Assembly: GCF_030053135.1 (NCBI RefSeq)
Contig: NZ_CP125652.1
Coordinates: 2,867,001-2,931,000, forward strand
Direction of reading: 5' to 3'
Source: Rhizobium sp. BT04
GTDB taxonomy: Bacteria > Pseudomonadota > Alphaproteobacteria > Rhizobiales > Rhizobiaceae
Length of the DNA stretch: 64,000 nucleotides
Below, piece by piece: positions 13,538 through 35,356 of the stretch; the stretch's first letter is position 1, and each line of letters starts with the position of its first letter. Below the pieces are notes generated by a model. That model saw only the letters and a list, made by a program, of their open reading frames with translations, made no database searches and was not told the origin of the DNA. Both the position numbers and the translations under genes were made by a program.

Positions 13538-15079
13538 TCACTGCGCAGCCAGCTCCATCACCTTGATCTGCGTTGCTTCATCGCGATTGAGGAAACCGGT
13601 CACGCGCCCCTCATGCATGACCATGATGCGGTCGCTCATCCCGAGAACCTCGGGCATTTCGGACGAGATCATGATGACTGCCACGCCGTGGCGCGCCATC
13701 TCCGTCACCAGCCGGTGGATTTCCGCCTTGGCGCCGACATCGATGCCGCGCGTCGGCTCATCGAGGATCAGGATCCGCGGATTGGTGAGCAGCCAGCGCC
13801 CGATCAGCACTTTCTGCTGATTGCCGCCTGAAAGGTTTTCCACCCGCTCGTAAAGATTGGGCGTTTTCACCCGCAACTTTTTTGCCATGTCTTCGCAGGT
13901 CGCTTCGATGGCGCCCTGCTGCACGAAACCGCCCTTGACATATCTGTCCTGCAGAACGGCGATCTGCATGTTCTCGAGAATATCGAGGATCAGCAGACAG
14001 CCGGTATCTTTGCGGTCCTCGGTCAGGAACGCCATCTGGTGACGGATAGCCTCGGTCGGCGACGAAATCGTCACCGGCTTGCCGTAGAGTTCGATCGAGC
14101 CGGAGCTTGCCGGCGTCACGCCGAACAGCGTTTCGGCGACATTCGATCGCCCGGAACCGACAAGGCCGGCCACACCGAGGATCTCGCCCGCCCGCACCTC
14201 GAAGGAGACGTTCTTGAAGACGCCGTTGAGGCAAAGATCCTTGACGGAGAGCAAGACCTCGCCGATCGGCACGTCCTCTTTGGGAAACATCTGGGTGATT
14301 TCGCGCCCGACCATCATGCGAATGATGTCGTCGCGGGTAACGTCGGTCGAAGCGTGCGTGCCGATATATCGGCCGTCACGGAAGACCGAAAACTCGTCGG
14401 CGATCTCGAAAAGCTCGTTCATCTTGTGGGTGATGTAGACGATGCCGATGCCCTGAGATCTGAGATCGCGGATGATGCGGAAGAGATGCTCGACCTCGCG
14501 CTCCGTCAGCGCCGAAGTCGGCTCGTCCATGATCAGCACGTCGGAATTATAGGAAACGGCCTTGGCAATCTCGACCATCTGCCGGTTGGCGACCGACAGG
14601 TACCGGACCTCGATATCGGGATCGATGTCGATATTGAGCCTGGTAAACAGCTCCTCGGTCATGCGGTGCATGGCGCCGTGATCGACGAAACCGAGGCGGT
14701 TCTTCGGTTCGCGGCGGATCCAGATATTTTCCGCGACCGTCATGAACGGCATCAGGTTCAGTTCCTGATGGATCATGGCAATCCCGTTCTCCAGCGCGTC
14801 GAGCGGAGATTTCAACCGGATCTCAACGCCCTTCAAGCGGATATCGCCCTTGTCGGGTATGTAAATGCCGGCAAGGATCTTCATCAATGTCGATTTGCCG
14901 GCGCCATTTTCGCCCATCAGCGCATGCACGGAGGCGCGCTTCAGCCGGAACTGCACGTCGTCGAGCGCGACGACGCCCGGAAATTCCTTGCGAACGCCCT
15001 CGGCGCTCAGCAGATATTCCGCATTCGGAACTGCGCCGCTCGCACGCACGGCGGCCATGGTTGTCGGGCTGACGGCCAT
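13538..15079 (-). CDS. Sugar ABC transporter ATP-binding protein, two ATPase domains (CUT2, RbsA/MglA family)
   Basis: A 513-residue duplicated ATPase. Domain 1 has [14 protein letters not shown] (Walker A), [13 protein letters not shown] as the signature region and [11 protein letters not shown]; domain 2 has the degenerate [29 protein letters not shown] and [13 protein letters not shown]. This asymmetry is normal for the family. The start at 15079 follows GGAGGAGATGAT; the open frame upstream to 15547 belongs to a shadow of the binding-protein gene. It provides energy for sugar uptake with the permease 34 bases downstream. Confidence 0.94.
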
Positions 15080-15147: not shown

Positions 15148-16077
15148 TCAGTTCTTGGTGACGAAGTCCTTGACGTTGGCAGGCGTGACGAGCTGGAAGG
15201 GAATATAAACCTTCTTGTCGATCTTTTCGCCCTTGGCGAGCTTGATCGCCGCATCGAGCGAGCCCTTGCCCTGGCCGGCGGCATCCTGGAAGACGGTGAC
15301 GTCGAGATCGCCCGCCTGCATGGCGGCAAGCGCGTCCTGCGTGGCGTCGACACCGCCGATGACGACCTTGGTCATGTCCTTGCCGGCCGCCTTCAGCGCC
15401 TGGATGGCGCCGATCGCCATTTCGTCGTTGTTGGAGATGACAGCGTCGAATTCGATGCCGCTGGAGAGCCAGTTGGTCATCAGGTCGGCGCCCTGGGTGC
15501 GGTCCCAATTGGCCGTCTGCTCTTCGACGATCTCGATGCCCTTGCATTCATCGGTCTTGATCACGTCATGGACGTCCTGGGTGCGCGTGCGCGCAGCCTG
15601 GTTGGAGAGCTCGCCCATGATGACGACGGCCTTGCCCTTGCCGCCGAGAATGCGGCAGATTTCCTTGGTTTCCAGCGTGCCGGATTCCAGCTCGTTGGAT
15701 GCGACGAAGGCCTGCTTGTCCGGCAGCGTGTCGACGTTGACAGGCTGGCGGTTGACGTAGACCAGCGGAATGCCGGCATCGGCGGCGAGCTTCGACATAG
15801 CCGTCGTCGCATCGGTATCGACAGGGTTGACGATGATTGCATCGACCTTGGAGGCGATGAAATTCTGGATCTGGCTCTGCTGCTTGGAAACGTCGTTCTG
15901 CGCGTCTTCGACCTGCAGCGTCACGCCGGAAAGCGTCTTTGCATAATCGGTCATGCCGTTGCGCAGAACGGTCAAGAAGTTGTCGTCGAACTTCGCCATC
16001 GAGACGCCGACGGTTTCCGCGTGAGCGGCCGTTGACATGACGAGCGCCATCGCAGTGCCCAGGATAAACTTTTTCAT
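15148..16077 (-). CDS. Periplasmic sugar-binding protein (CUT2 family, possibly myo-inositol)
   Basis: A 309-residue type I periplasmic binding protein. The signal peptide [20 protein letters not shown] ends at an AHA-ET cleavage site. Typical Peripla_BP_4 features are [39 protein letters not shown], and [18 protein letters not shown]. The start has GGAGGAAGTGAAA upstream; a longer frame to 16191 has no such signal. It resembles IbpA/IntA-type inositol-binding proteins in my judgement, but this rests on recollection plus the operator upstream, not on an alignment. Confidence 0.9.
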
Positions 16078-30705: not shown

Positions 30706-31341
30706 GTGGTGATTGAGAATGTGGACCGGCACTATCTCCGCATGCCGCACAGCGAGCGCGGCATGGTCGTCGGTCTGTTCGGCGGTTCGTTCAACCCGCC
30801 GCATCAGGGCCACGCGCTCGTCGCCGAGATCGCCCTCAAACGGCTCGGCCTCGATCAGCTCTGGTGGATGGTCACCCCCGGCAATCCGCTGAAGAGCCGC
30901 AACCAGCTCGCTCCGCTTGCCGAGCGCATTGCCGAAAGCGAGCGCATTGCCCCCGATCCCCGCGTCAAGGTCACCGCCTTCGAACAGACGCTCGGCGTCA
31001 GCTATACCGCCAACACGCTTGCCCGCGTCAAGGCGCGCAATCCGCATGTGCATTTCATCTGGATCATGGGCGCGGACAGCCTGCAGACCTTTCACAAATG
31101 GCAGAAATGGCAGGAAATTGCCCGCACCTTCCCGATCGCCGTGATCGACCGGCCGGGTGCGACGCTCTCCTTTCTCTCCTCGAAGATGACGAGGACCTTC
31201 GATTTCGCCCGTGTCGACGAGGATGACGCGCGTGTGCTCTGGAAGAAACCCGCGCCGGCCTGGACCTTCATCCACGGACCGCGCTCCGGCCTGAGCTCGA
31301 CGGCAATCCGCAACGGCTCTGCGCCGGGCAGCTCCGAATAG
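30706..31341 (+). CDS. nadD: Nicotinate-nucleotide adenylyltransferase
   Basis: Converts nicotinate mononucleotide to deamido-NAD in NAD synthesis. The core begins GLFGGSFNPPHQGH (nucleotidyltransferase motif) and ends with GLSSTAIRNG, the ISSTxIR motif. The start is not certain: GTG codons at 30688, 30706, 30709 and 30721 and an ATG at 30742 are in frame, with no strong ribosome binding site; 30706 was chosen because relatives have roughly ten residues before MPHSERGM. It is the last gene of the obgE-proBA-nadD run; the usual partner rsfS is 4 kb away. Confidence 0.93.
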   Translation: MVIENVDRHYLRMPHSERGMVVGLFGGSFNPPHQGHALVAEIALKRLGLDQLWWMVTPGNPLKSRNQLAPLAERIAESERIAPDPRVKVTAFEQTLGVSYTANTLARVKARNPHVHFIWIMGADSLQTFHKWQKWQEIARTFPIAVIDRPGATLSFLSSKMTRTFDFARVDEDDARVLWKKPAPAWTFIHGPRSGLSSTAIRNGSAPGSSE

Positions 31342-31363: not shown

Positions 31364-31489
31364 GAAACGAGAAAGCCCGACGGGGGAGGAGATCCGTCGG
31401 GCTTATGAACTCGATCGACAACTGGGAGGAGGAGTGTTGTCGATCCTACCGAACGGCTATGGGAGGAGGAGATGCCGTTTCGATGAGTC
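31364..31489 (-). ncRNA. Small regulatory RNA with three anti-Shine-Dalgarno hairpin loops (alpha-r14/NfeR1-like)
   Basis: On the minus strand three consecutive hairpins each expose CTCCTCC(TCC)C in the loop: stem 1 at 31450-31482 (CGAAACGGC/GCCGTTCG with one bulge), stem 2 at 31413-31445 (perfect 10 bp, GATCGACAAC/GTTGTCGATC), stem 3 at 31373-31404 (11 bp, AAGCCCGACGG arms). Stem 3 is followed by TTTCTCGTTT and serves as terminator. The architecture, length of about 125 nt and loop sequence match the alpha-r14 family (NfeR1 of Sinorhizobium, the cuckoo-type CCUCCUCCC RNAs), which pair with ribosome binding sites of transporter mRNAs. A TATGAT -10 element sits at 31496-31501 on the minus strand. 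End points are inferred. Confidence 0.85.
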
Positions 31490-31495
31490 TGTTGT

Positions 31496-31501
31496 ATCAT
31501 A
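31496..31501 (-). promoter_or_regulatory. -10 element (TATGAT) of the small RNA
   Basis: TATGAT on the minus strand lies 7 bases before the inferred 5' end near 31489. No TTGACA-like -35 is present at the proper distance, which suggests activator dependence. Confidence 0.55.
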
Positions 31502-31527
31502 TTCCGCAAGAAGGTGAATATCGATTG

Positions 31528-31546
31528 GTGCATTGCAGCAATGCAC
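31528..31546. promoter_or_regulatory. Perfect 19-bp palindrome upstream of the small RNA promoter
   Basis: GTGCATTGC-A-GCAATGCAC has nine-base perfect arms. Its centre lies about 48 bases upstream of the inferred RNA start, a classic activator position next to a promoter with a weak -35. Confidence 0.55.
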
Positions 31547-31752
31547 TGAGTGCAAATCTCCGGAGAGATTTGGCTTCGCCGTTGCCGCTTTTATTAGCAA
31601 CAATTAAAGGAAGCATCCTCTGCCGCCGGGAGTCCCTGCGGTTCGCAGACTGTCTCCGAGTATTTTCGCCCTACCGATCTCGATTTCGGCGGGAGCCATG
31701 CACCTGCCGAATGCGTGAACATTGCGCCGCTGCGAACACGGATCCGGGATCT

Positions 31753-31837: not shown

Positions 31838-32629
31838 ATGCAAAACCGTCGCCAATGGATGAAACTGGCAATTGCCGCGATGGCGGCCCTCTGGCTTGGC
31901 ACAGCAGCGCTTCCGGCGCCGGCCACTGCGGCCGAAAAGCTCACCGTCTTTGCGGCGGCGAGCCTCAAGGATGCGCTCGATGCCGCCAATGCCGCCTGGA
32001 CTGGGGAAAGCGGTAAGGAAGCCGTCGCCTCCTATGCGGCGAGCGGGGCACTGGCCAAGCAGATCGAAAATGCGGCGCCCGCCGATATCTTCATCTCGGC
32101 CGACCGCGACTGGATGGATTACGTCGCCAAGAAGAACCTGATTAAGGCCGACACCCGTTCGGACCTGCTTGGAAACCGGATCGTGCTCGTTGCCGAAAAG
32201 GACAAGGCCAAGCCCGTCGAGATCAAGCAGGATTTCGATCTCGCTGCTTTGCTCGGTGACGGAAGGCTTGCCATGGGTGAACCGAAATCGGTTCCGGCCG
32301 GCAAATACGGCATGGCTGCGCTGGAAAAGCTCGGCGTCTGGAAATCGGTCGAATCCAAGGTTGCCGGCGCCGAAAGCGTCCGTGCTGCCCTTGCCCTCGT
32401 CTCCCGCGGCGAAGCGCCTTATGGCATCGTCTACCAGACGGATGCCGCGGCCGATAAGGGTGTCGCCGTCGTCGGCACCTTCCCGGCCGATTCCCACCCG
32501 CCGATCATCTATCCGATCGCCATCCTGGCTTCGAGCAGGAACCCGGATGCCGCAGCCTATCTCGACTTCCTGAAATCCGATAAGGCCGCCGCTTTCTTCA
32601 CCGCGCAGGGCTTCACCATCCTCAAGTGA
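31838..32629 (+). CDS. modA: Molybdate-binding periplasmic protein
   Basis: High-affinity molybdate-binding protein of 263 residues. The signal peptide (MKLAIAAMAALWLGTAALPA, cleavage near TAA-EK) leads into KLTVFAAASLKDALDA, the first oxyanion-binding motif, then SYAASGALAKQIE and DIFISAD. ATG at 31838 follows GGGGAGTGAAC; a GTG two codons earlier is possible. It feeds molybdate to ModBC for molybdoenzymes and nitrogenase. Unusually, a 370-base gap with a repeat element separates it from modB. Confidence 0.94.
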   Translation: MQNRRQWMKLAIAAMAALWLGTAALPAPATAAEKLTVFAAASLKDALDAANAAWTGESGKEAVASYAASGALAKQIENAAPADIFISADRDWMDYVAKKNLIKADTRSDLLGNRIVLVAEKDKAKPVEIKQDFDLAALLGDGRLAMGEPKSVPAGKYGMAALEKLGVWKSVESKVAGAESVRAALALVSRGEAPYGIVYQTDAAADKGVAVVGTFPADSHPPIIYPIAILASSRNPDAAAYLDFLKSDKAAAFFTAQGFTILK

Positions 32630-32786
32630 TCGAGGGGCGAAATGATGGCGGAATCAACGACCGCAGCGCTGACAAAGTCGGCCAATTATTCTTTCGTCAC
32701 ACTCGGGCTTGTGTCCTAAGCATCCGCATCGATAGATAGCAGATATCAGGCATAGGGCTGATGGGTGTCCGCTTCGTGCCGATGGT

Positions 32787-32961
32787 TGCCCCTCACCCTA
32801 ACCCTCTCCCCGTAAACGGGGCGAGGAGACGTGCCCTGCGAGACGTTGGCGAGGGACGGAGAGGTTGCGGCTATTCCCCTTCGCCCCGCGCGCGGGGTCC
32901 GAAGGACGGGCCGAGACACATGGCTCGACCCCGGTCGGTACCGGCAGGCGGATGAGGGGCA
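32787..32961. repeat. MITE-like repeat element with terminal inverted repeats, between modA and modB
   Basis: About 175 bases bounded by TGCCCCTCACCC and, inverted, TGCCCCTCATCC. Inside are further palindromes (CTCCCCGTAAACGGGG and CGCCCCGCGCGCGGGG-like). It has no coding content and looks like the high-copy intergenic repeats of rhizobia. It splits modA from modB, so it may lie within the operon transcript. Confidence 0.6.
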
Positions 32962-33002
32962 GGCATCGGGTGACACCGGATTTTCCAGGGAGACGGCTGC
33001 AT

Positions 33003-33704
33003 TTGGATATCTTCGGCCTGAGCAACGAGGAATGGACGGCGATCTTGCTCAGCCTGCGCGTCTCGATCGTCGCCATGCTGGCGAGCCTGCCCTTCGGCAT
33101 CCTCGTCGCCCTACTGCTTGCCCGCGGCCGCTTCTGGGGCAAATCGGTGCTGAACGGCATCGTTCATCTGCCGCTGATCCTACCCCCCGTCGTCACCGGT
33201 TTCCTTCTCCTCATCCTGTTCGGCCGTCGCGGTCCGGTCGGCAGCCTGCTCGACCAGTATTTCGGCATCGTTCTCTCCTTCCGCTGGACGGGTGCGGCTC
33301 TGGCCTGCGCCGTCATGGCCTTTCCGCTGATGGTACGCAGCATCCGCCTGTCGATCGAGGCGGTCGACCGCAAGCTGGAGGAGGCGGCTGGAACGCTCGG
33401 CGCCGGTCCCACCTCGGTCTTTTTGACCATCACGCTGCCGCTGATCTTGCCCGGCATCATCACCGGCATGATCCTTTCCTTCGCCAAGGCGATGGGTGAA
33501 TTCGGTGCGACGATCACCTTCGTCTCCAACATCCCGGGAGAAACCCAGACGCTGTCGGCAGCGATCTACACCTTCACCCAGGTGCCGGGCGGGGATGCCG
33601 GCGCGCTGCGCCTGACGCTCGTCGCCGTCGCCATCTCGATGGCAGCCCTGCTCGCCTCCGAATTCCTCGCCCGCCTCGCCGGTCAAAGGATCGATCCGGA
33701 ATGA
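33003..33704 (+). CDS. modB: Molybdate ABC transporter permease
   Basis: A 233-residue permease with five to six helices and the coupling loop [39 protein letters not shown] is the conserved ModB C-terminal stretch. The start is a TTG at 33003 (decoded [11 protein letters not shown]) preceded by AGGGAG at about 11 bases; the long frame from 32865 runs through the repeat element and is artefactual. modC overlaps its stop as ATGA. Confidence 0.93.
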
Positions 33705-34768
33705 CGCTGATCGTCGAGGCAAAACAGCGGCTCGGCGCCTTTTCGCTCGATGCCGCCTTCACCTCCGAGCGTGGCGTCACCGCGCTGTTCGGCCGCTCCG
33801 GCTCCGGCAAGACCTCGCTGATCCGCATCATCGCCGGCCTCGCCCGTCCGGACGATGGCCGCGTTGTCCTTGACGGCGAGCCCCTGACTGAAACCGCAGC
33901 CGGTATTTTCGTCCCGAAACATCGCCGCCGCTTCGGTTATGTCTTCCAGGAGGCCCGGCTTTTCCCGCACCTCAGCGTTCGCGCCAATCTCTCCTATGGC
34001 CGCTGGTTCGCGGCGAGAGCGGCAGGCGGTGAAAGCTTCGATCGCATCGTCGACCTGCTCGGCATCGAGCCGCTGCTGGAGCGCAGCCCCGCAAAACTTT
34101 CCGGCGGCGAGAAGCAGCGCGTCGCCATCGGCCGCGCCCTTCTCTCCACGCCCCGCCTGCTGTTGATGGACGAGCCGCTCGCCGCCCTCGACGAGGCGCG
34201 CAAGGCCGAGATCCTGCCTTATCTCGAGCGATTGCGCGACGAGACTGACATTCCGATCGTCTATGTCAGCCATTCGATCGCCGAGGTGGCGCGGCTGGCA
34301 AACCAGGTGGTCGTCATGCGCGACGGCAAAGTGGAAGCGACCGGTCCTGCCGTCGACATATTGAGCCGCCCCTCTGCGGCATCCGACCGGAAGGAGACCG
34401 GCGCGCTGTTGGAAGGCACGGTCGAAAGCTTCGACGCGCTTCATCGCCTGTCGACCGTCGCGCTGAAATCCTGCCAGCTGCATATTCCGGGTGCGGCCCT
34501 TGCACCCGGCAAATCGGTCCGCATCCACATTCCCTCCCGCGATGTCATGCTGGCGACGACAAGACCCGAAGGGCTGAGCGCACTGAATATCCTGGAAGCA
34601 AGGATAGAGCAGATATCGCCGACGGAGGACGGAACGGTGGAAATCCGGCTCGATTGCGGTGGCGATATCATTCTTTCCCGCATCACCATGCTCTCCTGCG
34701 AGCGTCTTGATCTTCGACCGGGAAGGGCAGTGTTCGCCGTCATCAAGACGGTTGCCCTGGAGGCCTGA
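33701..34768 (+). CDS. modC: Molybdate ABC transporter ATP-binding protein
   Basis: A 355-residue ATPase for molybdate import. [13 protein letters not shown] is Walker A (residue 30), [15 protein letters not shown] the signature, [15 protein letters not shown]alker B, and the C-terminal 65 residues ([14 protein letters not shown]...) form a Mop/TOBE domain that can bind oxyanion. It ends directly against the stop codon of the convergent regulator gene with no base between. Confidence 0.95.
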
Positions 34769-35146
34769 TCAGCCGCGCTCGCCCTGCTCCAGGTTGCGCT
34801 TGCCCTCGAGCCAGGCGAGGTCTTCGGCAAGGCTCGTACGCATCGTCTTTTCCATCCGGCGGAAACGCTCGAGCAATTCCTCGCCGAACGGCGTCAACGC
34901 CGCGCCACCGCCCTTTTGCCCGCCGCGCTGCGATTCCACCACGTGTTCGCAGAACATCCGGTTCATCTCGCTGACCAGCAGCCATGCCCGCCGATAGGAC
35001 ATGTCCATCGCCCGCCCCGCCGCCGAGATCGATCCGGTCGCGCGGATATGTTCCAGCAGTTCCATCTTGCCGTGGCCAAGCCGATCCTCGTCCGGGAAGC
35101 TGATTCGCAGGACGGGCACGAGGGTTTTTGCGGCTGAGTCGGTCAT
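34769..35146 (-). CDS. ModE-type winged-helix transcriptional regulator, DNA-binding domain only
   Basis: A 125-residue regulator: LLEHIRATGSISAAGRAMDM followed by SYRRAWLLVSEMNRMF is the ModE/LysR-like winged helix, with GGQKGGGAALTPFGEELLE as the wing. Full-length ModE is about 260 residues with tandem Mop domains for molybdate; these are absent. It could sense molybdate through the ModC Mop domain or another partner, or respond to nothing. ATG at 35146 (MTDSAAKTLV) was chosen over an upstream frame that starts at 35242. The position beside modABC supports a role there. Confidence 0.85.
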   Translation of the reverse strand: MTDSAAKTLVPVLRISFPDEDRLGHGKMELLEHIRATGSISAAGRAMDMSYRRAWLLVSEMNRMFCEHVVESQRGGQKGGGAALTPFGEELLERFRRMEKTMRTSLAEDLAWLEGKRNLEQGERG

Positions 35147-35356
35147 TGAATCCGGAGATCGTGGAATTTGCTGCACTTTACGCTGCGGCACGGAAACTGT
35201 ACACCGCCCGCAATAAGCGGCCCGAGTGGCAATATTCTTCAATTCGGGCGTCGGATCGGATTTTCAGCCGTTCTGTATCTTAGCACGTCTTGAAACATTA
35301 ATGGTTTGATGCCTATCTTAACCATGATCCGGTCTCGATCGGATCTCGTGTTGTGC

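Follow-up and report, generated by a model that had tools for sequence, protein, structure and literature searches.

An ar14 (NfeR1-type) small RNA convergent to nadD in Rhizobium, with a probable LsrB box inside a promoter palindrome

The best-described relative of the locus studied here is nfeR1 of Sinorhizobium meliloti. According to the accessible text of PMC10746234, LsrB acts on its promoter as an activator at -72 to -57, NfeR1 expression is LsrB dependent, and NtrC acts as a repressor at -116 to -100 through a TGC-N11-GCA site. A section of PMC7143759 reports that only one of the six S. meliloti copies was reliably detected by Northern blot. For the VtlR/LsrB box, PMC7486931 speaks in part of confirmation in B. 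abortus and of a hypothesis in A. tumefaciens. In S. meliloti, the box upstream of abcR1 lies at -61 to -49, and LysR and ArsR-type genes flanking tandem abcR copies are a published arrangement (both from excerpts of PMC8844928). An LsrB site in the abcR1 promoter is reported by a paper cited in the portion of PMC10746234 available to us, but a passage in PMC7486931 states the contrary, that LsrB does not regulate abcR in S. meliloti.

Here, we followed up a first-pass annotation of a 64,000-nt stretch of Rhizobium sp. BT04 DNA (the window), which had proposed an NfeR1/alpha-r14-like RNA downstream of a palindromic activator site. The alpha-r14/NfeR1 interpretation is supported, and the locus is well conserved and an unexceptional representative of an RNA family already studied. 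With a probability of about 0.85, we read it as an alpha-r14 (ar14/NfeR1) RNA that would be activated by LsrB via a box in the palindrome, repressed by NtrC, and silence ntrB and transporter mRNAs.

The ar14 RNA and its position beside nadD

The RNA, its hairpins, and the neighboring genes are as follows.

31368-31488, minus strand: ar14 (NfeR1-type) small RNA, RF02344 positions 1-123 (Rfam cmscan, 111 bits)
31450-31482, minus strand: hairpin 1, CTCCTCCTCCC anti-Shine-Dalgarno (anti-SD) loop (fold; 93.7% of cells paired in 30 orthologues, the weakest stem)
31413-31445, minus strand: hairpin 2, CTCCTCCTCCC anti-SD loop (10-nt arms 31413-31422 and 31436-31445, an exact 10-bp inverted repeat)
31373-31404, minus strand: hairpin 3, CTCCTCCC in the loop, terminator-like stem (11-nt arms 31373-31383 and 31394-31404, an exact 11-bp inverted repeat)
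30742-31338, plus strand: nadD, convergent neighbor (own-genome match, coordinates converted)
31838-32629, plus strand: modA, divergent neighbor beyond the promoter (TIGR01256 and NF007958 above cut-off)

The family assignment was borne out by the Rfam covariance model: minus strand 31488-31368 is a full-length match to ar14 (RF02344) at 111 bits against a gathering cut-off of 58.8 bits, and in the Rfam scan of 31368-31488, in which a match to cuckoo (CcsR) RNAs was also of interest, ar14 was the sole family above its cut-off. The ar14 traits are all present, namely three hairpins with variable stems and CCUCCUCCC-type loops that are unpaired, with CTCCTCCC in the third loop. The three CTCCTCC-type loops claimed from the sequence hold for hairpins 1 and 2, which carry CTCCTCCTCCC, but not for hairpin 3, which carries CTCCTCCC. 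Calling the last hairpin a terminator agrees with its exact 11-bp, terminator-like stem; it is absent from the terminator scan, which is limited to loops of 8, against its own of 10. The computed fold energy was -49.1 kcal/mol compared with -29.2 +/- 3.2 for 200 shuffled sequences (z -6.2, none as low), and the three anti-SD loops were 89-100% unpaired. Hairpin 1 was drawn by hand with 8 pairs and a bulge (approximately 31450-31482); the minimum-energy fold gave it 10 pairs and added a 5-pair outer helix around hairpins 1 and 2.

Covariation among close relatives had been named as one point on which the proposal depended, and it was found in a MAFFT alignment of 30 orthologues (29 pairs, 867 cells). 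Changes on both sides of a pair occurred in 8 of the 29 pairs and in 40 cells, compared with 9.5 +/- 4.3 in shuffles (0/500 as high). Overall, 98.0% of the 867 cells were paired, whereas versions of the structure slid along the alignment paired 20-48% of cells with at most 13 both-side-change cells. Both-side changes fell in 3 of 10 pairs of hairpin 2 and in 3 of 11 pairs of hairpin 3, in which 100% of cells were paired. The count of further pair types was no higher than in shuffles for the same 30 orthologues (18 versus 17.0; 178/500).

The locus was traced through the genus sample of 40 genomes, the window's own included. All 40 have ar14 matches over the cut-off, and ar14 is convergent to nadD in 30/30 fetched loci (the best 30 nadD loci of the 40 genomes). 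In four more genomes, an ar14 match is listed no more than 80 bases from the nadD match, and in the last six, CTCCTCC loop pairs occupy the corresponding position in the same orientation, as a pattern only. The family sample comprised 61 genomes, 59 of them from other genera and 57 of these with a nadD match; ar14 was beside nadD in 0/28 of these other-genus loci (the best 28 of the 57). On the far side, a ModA-like ORF is present in the window by profile match and in three other loci by eye (L039, L050, and L060). In the window (31838-35242), the ORFs after modA resemble an ABC permease and an ATPase, probably modBC as judged by eye, and the same region holds a short minus-strand protein with a ModE-domain match of 83.8 bits, below the cut-off of 98.5.

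Promoter elements and the putative LsrB site

Five elements lie upstream of the RNA, with distances given from the Rfam 5' end.

31496-31501, minus strand: -10 TATGAT, with a weak -35 TCGATA (promoter search)
31528-31546: perfect 19-bp palindrome, with the 15-bp core at 31530-31544 reading GCATTGCTGCAATGC on the minus strand (exact repeat)
31532-31544, minus strand: VtlR/LsrB box GCAT-N3-TG-N3-T, probable activator site (sequence match; consensus from the accessible part of PMC7486931)
31541-31554, minus strand: TGCA-N6-GCAT, the motif published as the LsrB site in S. meliloti PnfeR1 (sequence match)
31583-31599, minus strand: TGC-N11-GCA (TGCTAATAAAAGCGGCA), NtrC-type, probable repressor site (sequence match)

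The TATGAT -10 (31501-31496) had been described as lacking a -35. The -10 stands, but the -35 is weak rather than wholly missing, because TCGATA, 17 nt upstream, matches TTGACA at 4/6 positions and a site of such quality occurs once in the stretch versus 0.4 expected. The palindrome reported at 31528-31546 and centered near -48 is exact, with 9-nt arms (31528-31536 and 31538-31546) around one base and a center approximately 49 nt upstream of the Rfam 5' end; its pattern, with up to three mismatches, matches once in the window versus 0.01 expected. Both the three-hairpin RNA and the palindrome are thus confirmed as observations. Full 19-bp symmetry is a trait of few species: the perfect dyad occurs in only 3/34 nadD-linked orthologues, and the 15-bp core is perfectly symmetric in 13/34.

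The conserved part of the palindrome is GCATTGCTGCAWTGC, which is the VtlR/LsrB box GCAT-N3-TG-N3-T. Of the 34 nadD-linked orthologues, 32 have it at -56, one has it at -55, and one (L056) does not have it. TGCA-N6-GCAT lies at -66 in the window and is kept there in 15/34. An exact search of the window's own genome for the 15-mer core hit two ar14 promoters, at -56 in each, and nothing else; allowing up to two mismatches, the search gave 27+21 matches (some counted on both strands) versus 8+4 for the reversed pattern. A query of genome contigs with the promoter string TGCANTCARTGCATTGCTGCA proved too strict, returning two records from unrelated organisms. The regulator of the palindrome, which the first-pass annotation had called not known, is probably a known one: judging by the box, the palindrome is very probably the site of LsrB. 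Its proposed role as an activator site likewise fits the LsrB-dependent NfeR1 promoter published in PMC10746234 and the box consensus in PMC7486931, so far as the accessible sections of the two papers go.

The same genome has two tandem AbcR-type (ar15) copies, flanked by a LysR gene on one side and, by eye, an ArsR-type gene on the other. The first copy, abcR1 by position, has the same VtlR/LsrB box at -61. The LysR protein is close to the solved LysR regulator 9hh1 (E 6.5e-191); no NCBIfam model gave it a match over the cut-off. It is probably LsrB (VtlR), a name we give it because of the gene arrangement at the tandem abcR copies. Two further ar15 copies in this genome have the box at -60 (L123, first base off) and at -62 (L124, exact).

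Under our reading, LsrB (VtlR), a LysR-type activator, would bind the box inside the palindrome and recruit RNA polymerase to the promoter with its weak -35, and NtrC would bind TGC-N11-GCA further upstream and repress transcription. The three anti-SD loops of the RNA, approximately 121 nt long, would pair with ribosome-binding sites and so silence ntrB and transporter mRNAs. As a functional NfeR1 orthologue, the RNA would also be induced by nitrogen stress and in nodules. LsrB and NtrC binding, expression, and targets are inferred here by analogy with S. meliloti.

Copies across the genus, the NtrC-type site, and candidate targets

The window's own genome (6.99 Mb, seven contigs) contains six ar14 copies. 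Across the 40 genomes, 235 matches were listed and 153 copies were analyzed, or 152 after one at a contig end with a wrong strand offset was dropped (L030); another is cut by a contig end, and its positions are approximate (L207). An anti-SD loop up to 60 nt upstream of the ar14 model start was counted as an extra loop. Such a loop, outside RF02344, is present in 54/152 copies, 51 of which have the VtlR/LsrB box at -97 to -90. Among the 98 copies with no extra loop, the box is at -55 to -57 in 60 and missing from there in 38. Over the 34,002 bases upstream of the 153 copies, it has three other occurrences. Because the boxes concentrate at these two respective places, the box keeps its distance from the 5' end of the RNA as the RNA gains a hairpin.

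The extra-loop copies comprise L004 and L005 in the window's own genome (contigs C7 and C4) and 52 others, most with the box approximately 38 nt further upstream. L005, on a 422,655-base contig, folds into four main hairpins and over 246 bases is identical to a Rhizobium etli CFN 42 plasmid and to plasmids of other bean-nodulating Rhizobium, so the genome is likely that of a Rhizobium that lives in symbiosis with bean. We do not count the extra hairpin as a novelty; an accessible passage of PMC3927594 already describes four-hairpin members as SmelA099. Another copy in this genome, L003, and copies similar to it have no LsrB box; upstream they have a similar GC-rich stretch with, by eye, possible hairpins that have no anti-SD loops. 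In other genera, the exact box occurs within 180 nt upstream of only 3/28 best-scoring ar14 copies, which may not be the LsrB-controlled ones.

The separate NtrC-type site, TGC-N11-GCA at -111 to -95 in the window, had been missed by the earlier sequence-only reading. It starts 45 nt upstream of TGCA-N6-GCAT; in S. meliloti, the published spacing is 44 nt. Near -111, the site is present in 16/34 orthologues, namely 15 of the 16 loci L038-L053 and L190, where it looks doubtful, and in 0/14 of L054-L067. The latter group has the block AGAAGCGTTTTTTGGGCA at -101 (exact in 7/14, within two mismatches in 13/14), perhaps the site of another repressor. The block covers positions -101 to -84 relative to ar14, in place of the NtrC-type site of the other clade. 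Searched at up to two mismatches in six genomes, it matched exactly at the ar14 locus in 4/4 clade-B genomes; one of these (G018) had one further two-mismatch match, the other three had this locus alone, and G000 and G007 had none.

The ntrB gene was named by its place after dusB and by its best NCBIfam match, NF008293, at 193 bits, below the cut-off of 240. Its start is preceded by CGGGAGGC, with GGGAGG present. The RNA is predicted to pair with this ribosome-binding site at -18.4 kcal/mol, or -20.3 kcal/mol with the loops cut differently. A value below -18.4 was reached by 4 of 50 crude window gene calls, one of them the sugar ATPase at 15079, although several starts were tried for window genes, with the best one kept, and only one for ntrB, and the gene caller was poor, calling several antisense ORFs and missing modA and the binding protein. 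The two ABC genes offered earlier as targets are only plausible: the ATPase at 15079 ranked third among the 50 calls (-19.6 kcal/mol), and the binding protein at 16077, scored apart, reached -15.5. As modeled, predicted pairing cannot single out targets.

A comparison of 28 genomes, leaving out G003 (no ntrB start in the locus) and G038 (no fetched nadD-linked copy), found GGGAGG at the ntrB ribosome site in 14/14 genomes where the NtrC-type site is present and in 3/14 where it is missing; 10 of the 14 site-less promoters carry AGAAGCGTTTTTTGGGCA at -101 within two mismatches. On a dusB tree of the 28, the NtrC-type site changes three times and GGGAGG twice, leaving three independent pairs; averaged, 0.9 of these agree, none oppose, and 2.1 show no difference. 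The joint pattern is therefore indistinguishable from one split. These patterns might suggest that only part of the genus has the published NtrC-NfeR1 double-negative loop and that it was rewired at both arms, which we consider unlikely. Against such rewiring, two site-less genomes still have strong predicted ntrB pairing (G021, -18.7; G031, -20.2), a site-bearing genome with a doubtful site has weak predicted pairing (G008, -13.9), and another was counted as site-less for one base (G023). The reach of the NtrBC-NfeR1 loop could be tested cheaply by comparison across the clade split in the NtrC-type site.

Alternative readings and comparison with known systems

The palindrome fits TGC-N11-GCA as well as it fits the LsrB box, with the NtrC pattern at -57 both in the window and, among the 30 orthologues scanned, in 6 others, so it could itself be the site of NtrC or of another symmetric dimer, and NtrC could compete with LsrB for the same bases in palindrome-bearing species. 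We consider this very unlikely: orthologues that have lost the outer symmetry retain the 15-bp core, the center is not A/T-rich, unlike the NtrC site described in the available text of PMC10746234, and NtrC has a candidate site of its own at -111. Less probable still is an undescribed regulator unrelated to LsrB. The LysR gene was not identified as LsrB by any family model, which leaves some room for one, but the fit to GCAT-N3-TG-N3-T is exact, the same box stands at abcR1 in this genome, an LsrB requirement is published for S. meliloti nfeR1 (PMC10746234, in the accessible part), and the two other one-mismatch palindrome places in the genome (L098 and L099) were set aside as lying inside long coding-type ORFs. 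LsrB is thus the very probable name for the regulator of the palindrome.

That this ar14 copy is a paralogue expressed rarely or not at all is also unlikely, if somewhat less so. The genome has six copies, and the S. meliloti Northern data cited above from PMC7143759 would be in keeping with silence; retention of the RNA in all 30 fetched nadD loci of the genus, together with its conserved promoter core and covarying stems, speaks against it. On the LsrB-activated reading, the NfeR1 promoter architecture extends to a fixed nadD-linked locus across the genus, legume symbionts included. Two modest points may be new: that the locus is fixed and that the NtrC-type site divides by clade.

The closest known system is NfeR1 (SmelC397/Smr14C2) of Sinorhizobium meliloti, which shares the three anti-SD-loop hairpins, the LsrB motif, the status of one of six genomic copies, and an NtrC-type motif at nearly equal spacing (45 nt here, 44 nt there). 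The copy described here differs in sitting between nadD and modA, in having a weaker -35 than the published CTTAGAC, and in its exact palindrome. The window copy has no structural difference from the Rfam ar14 family (RF02344), whereas 54/152 genus copies add the 5' anti-SD loop outside the model. Two anti-SD RNAs, RFMSmelA075 with three hairpins and RFMSmelA099 with four, are alike by description in having CCUCCUCCC loops, variable stems, and several copies per genome (PMC3927594, accessible part). AbcR1 and AbcR2 (ar15, RF02345) resemble the RNA in their LsrB/VtlR box at a similar upstream distance, their anti-SD motifs, and their ABC-transporter targets, but they belong to another RNA family at separate loci.
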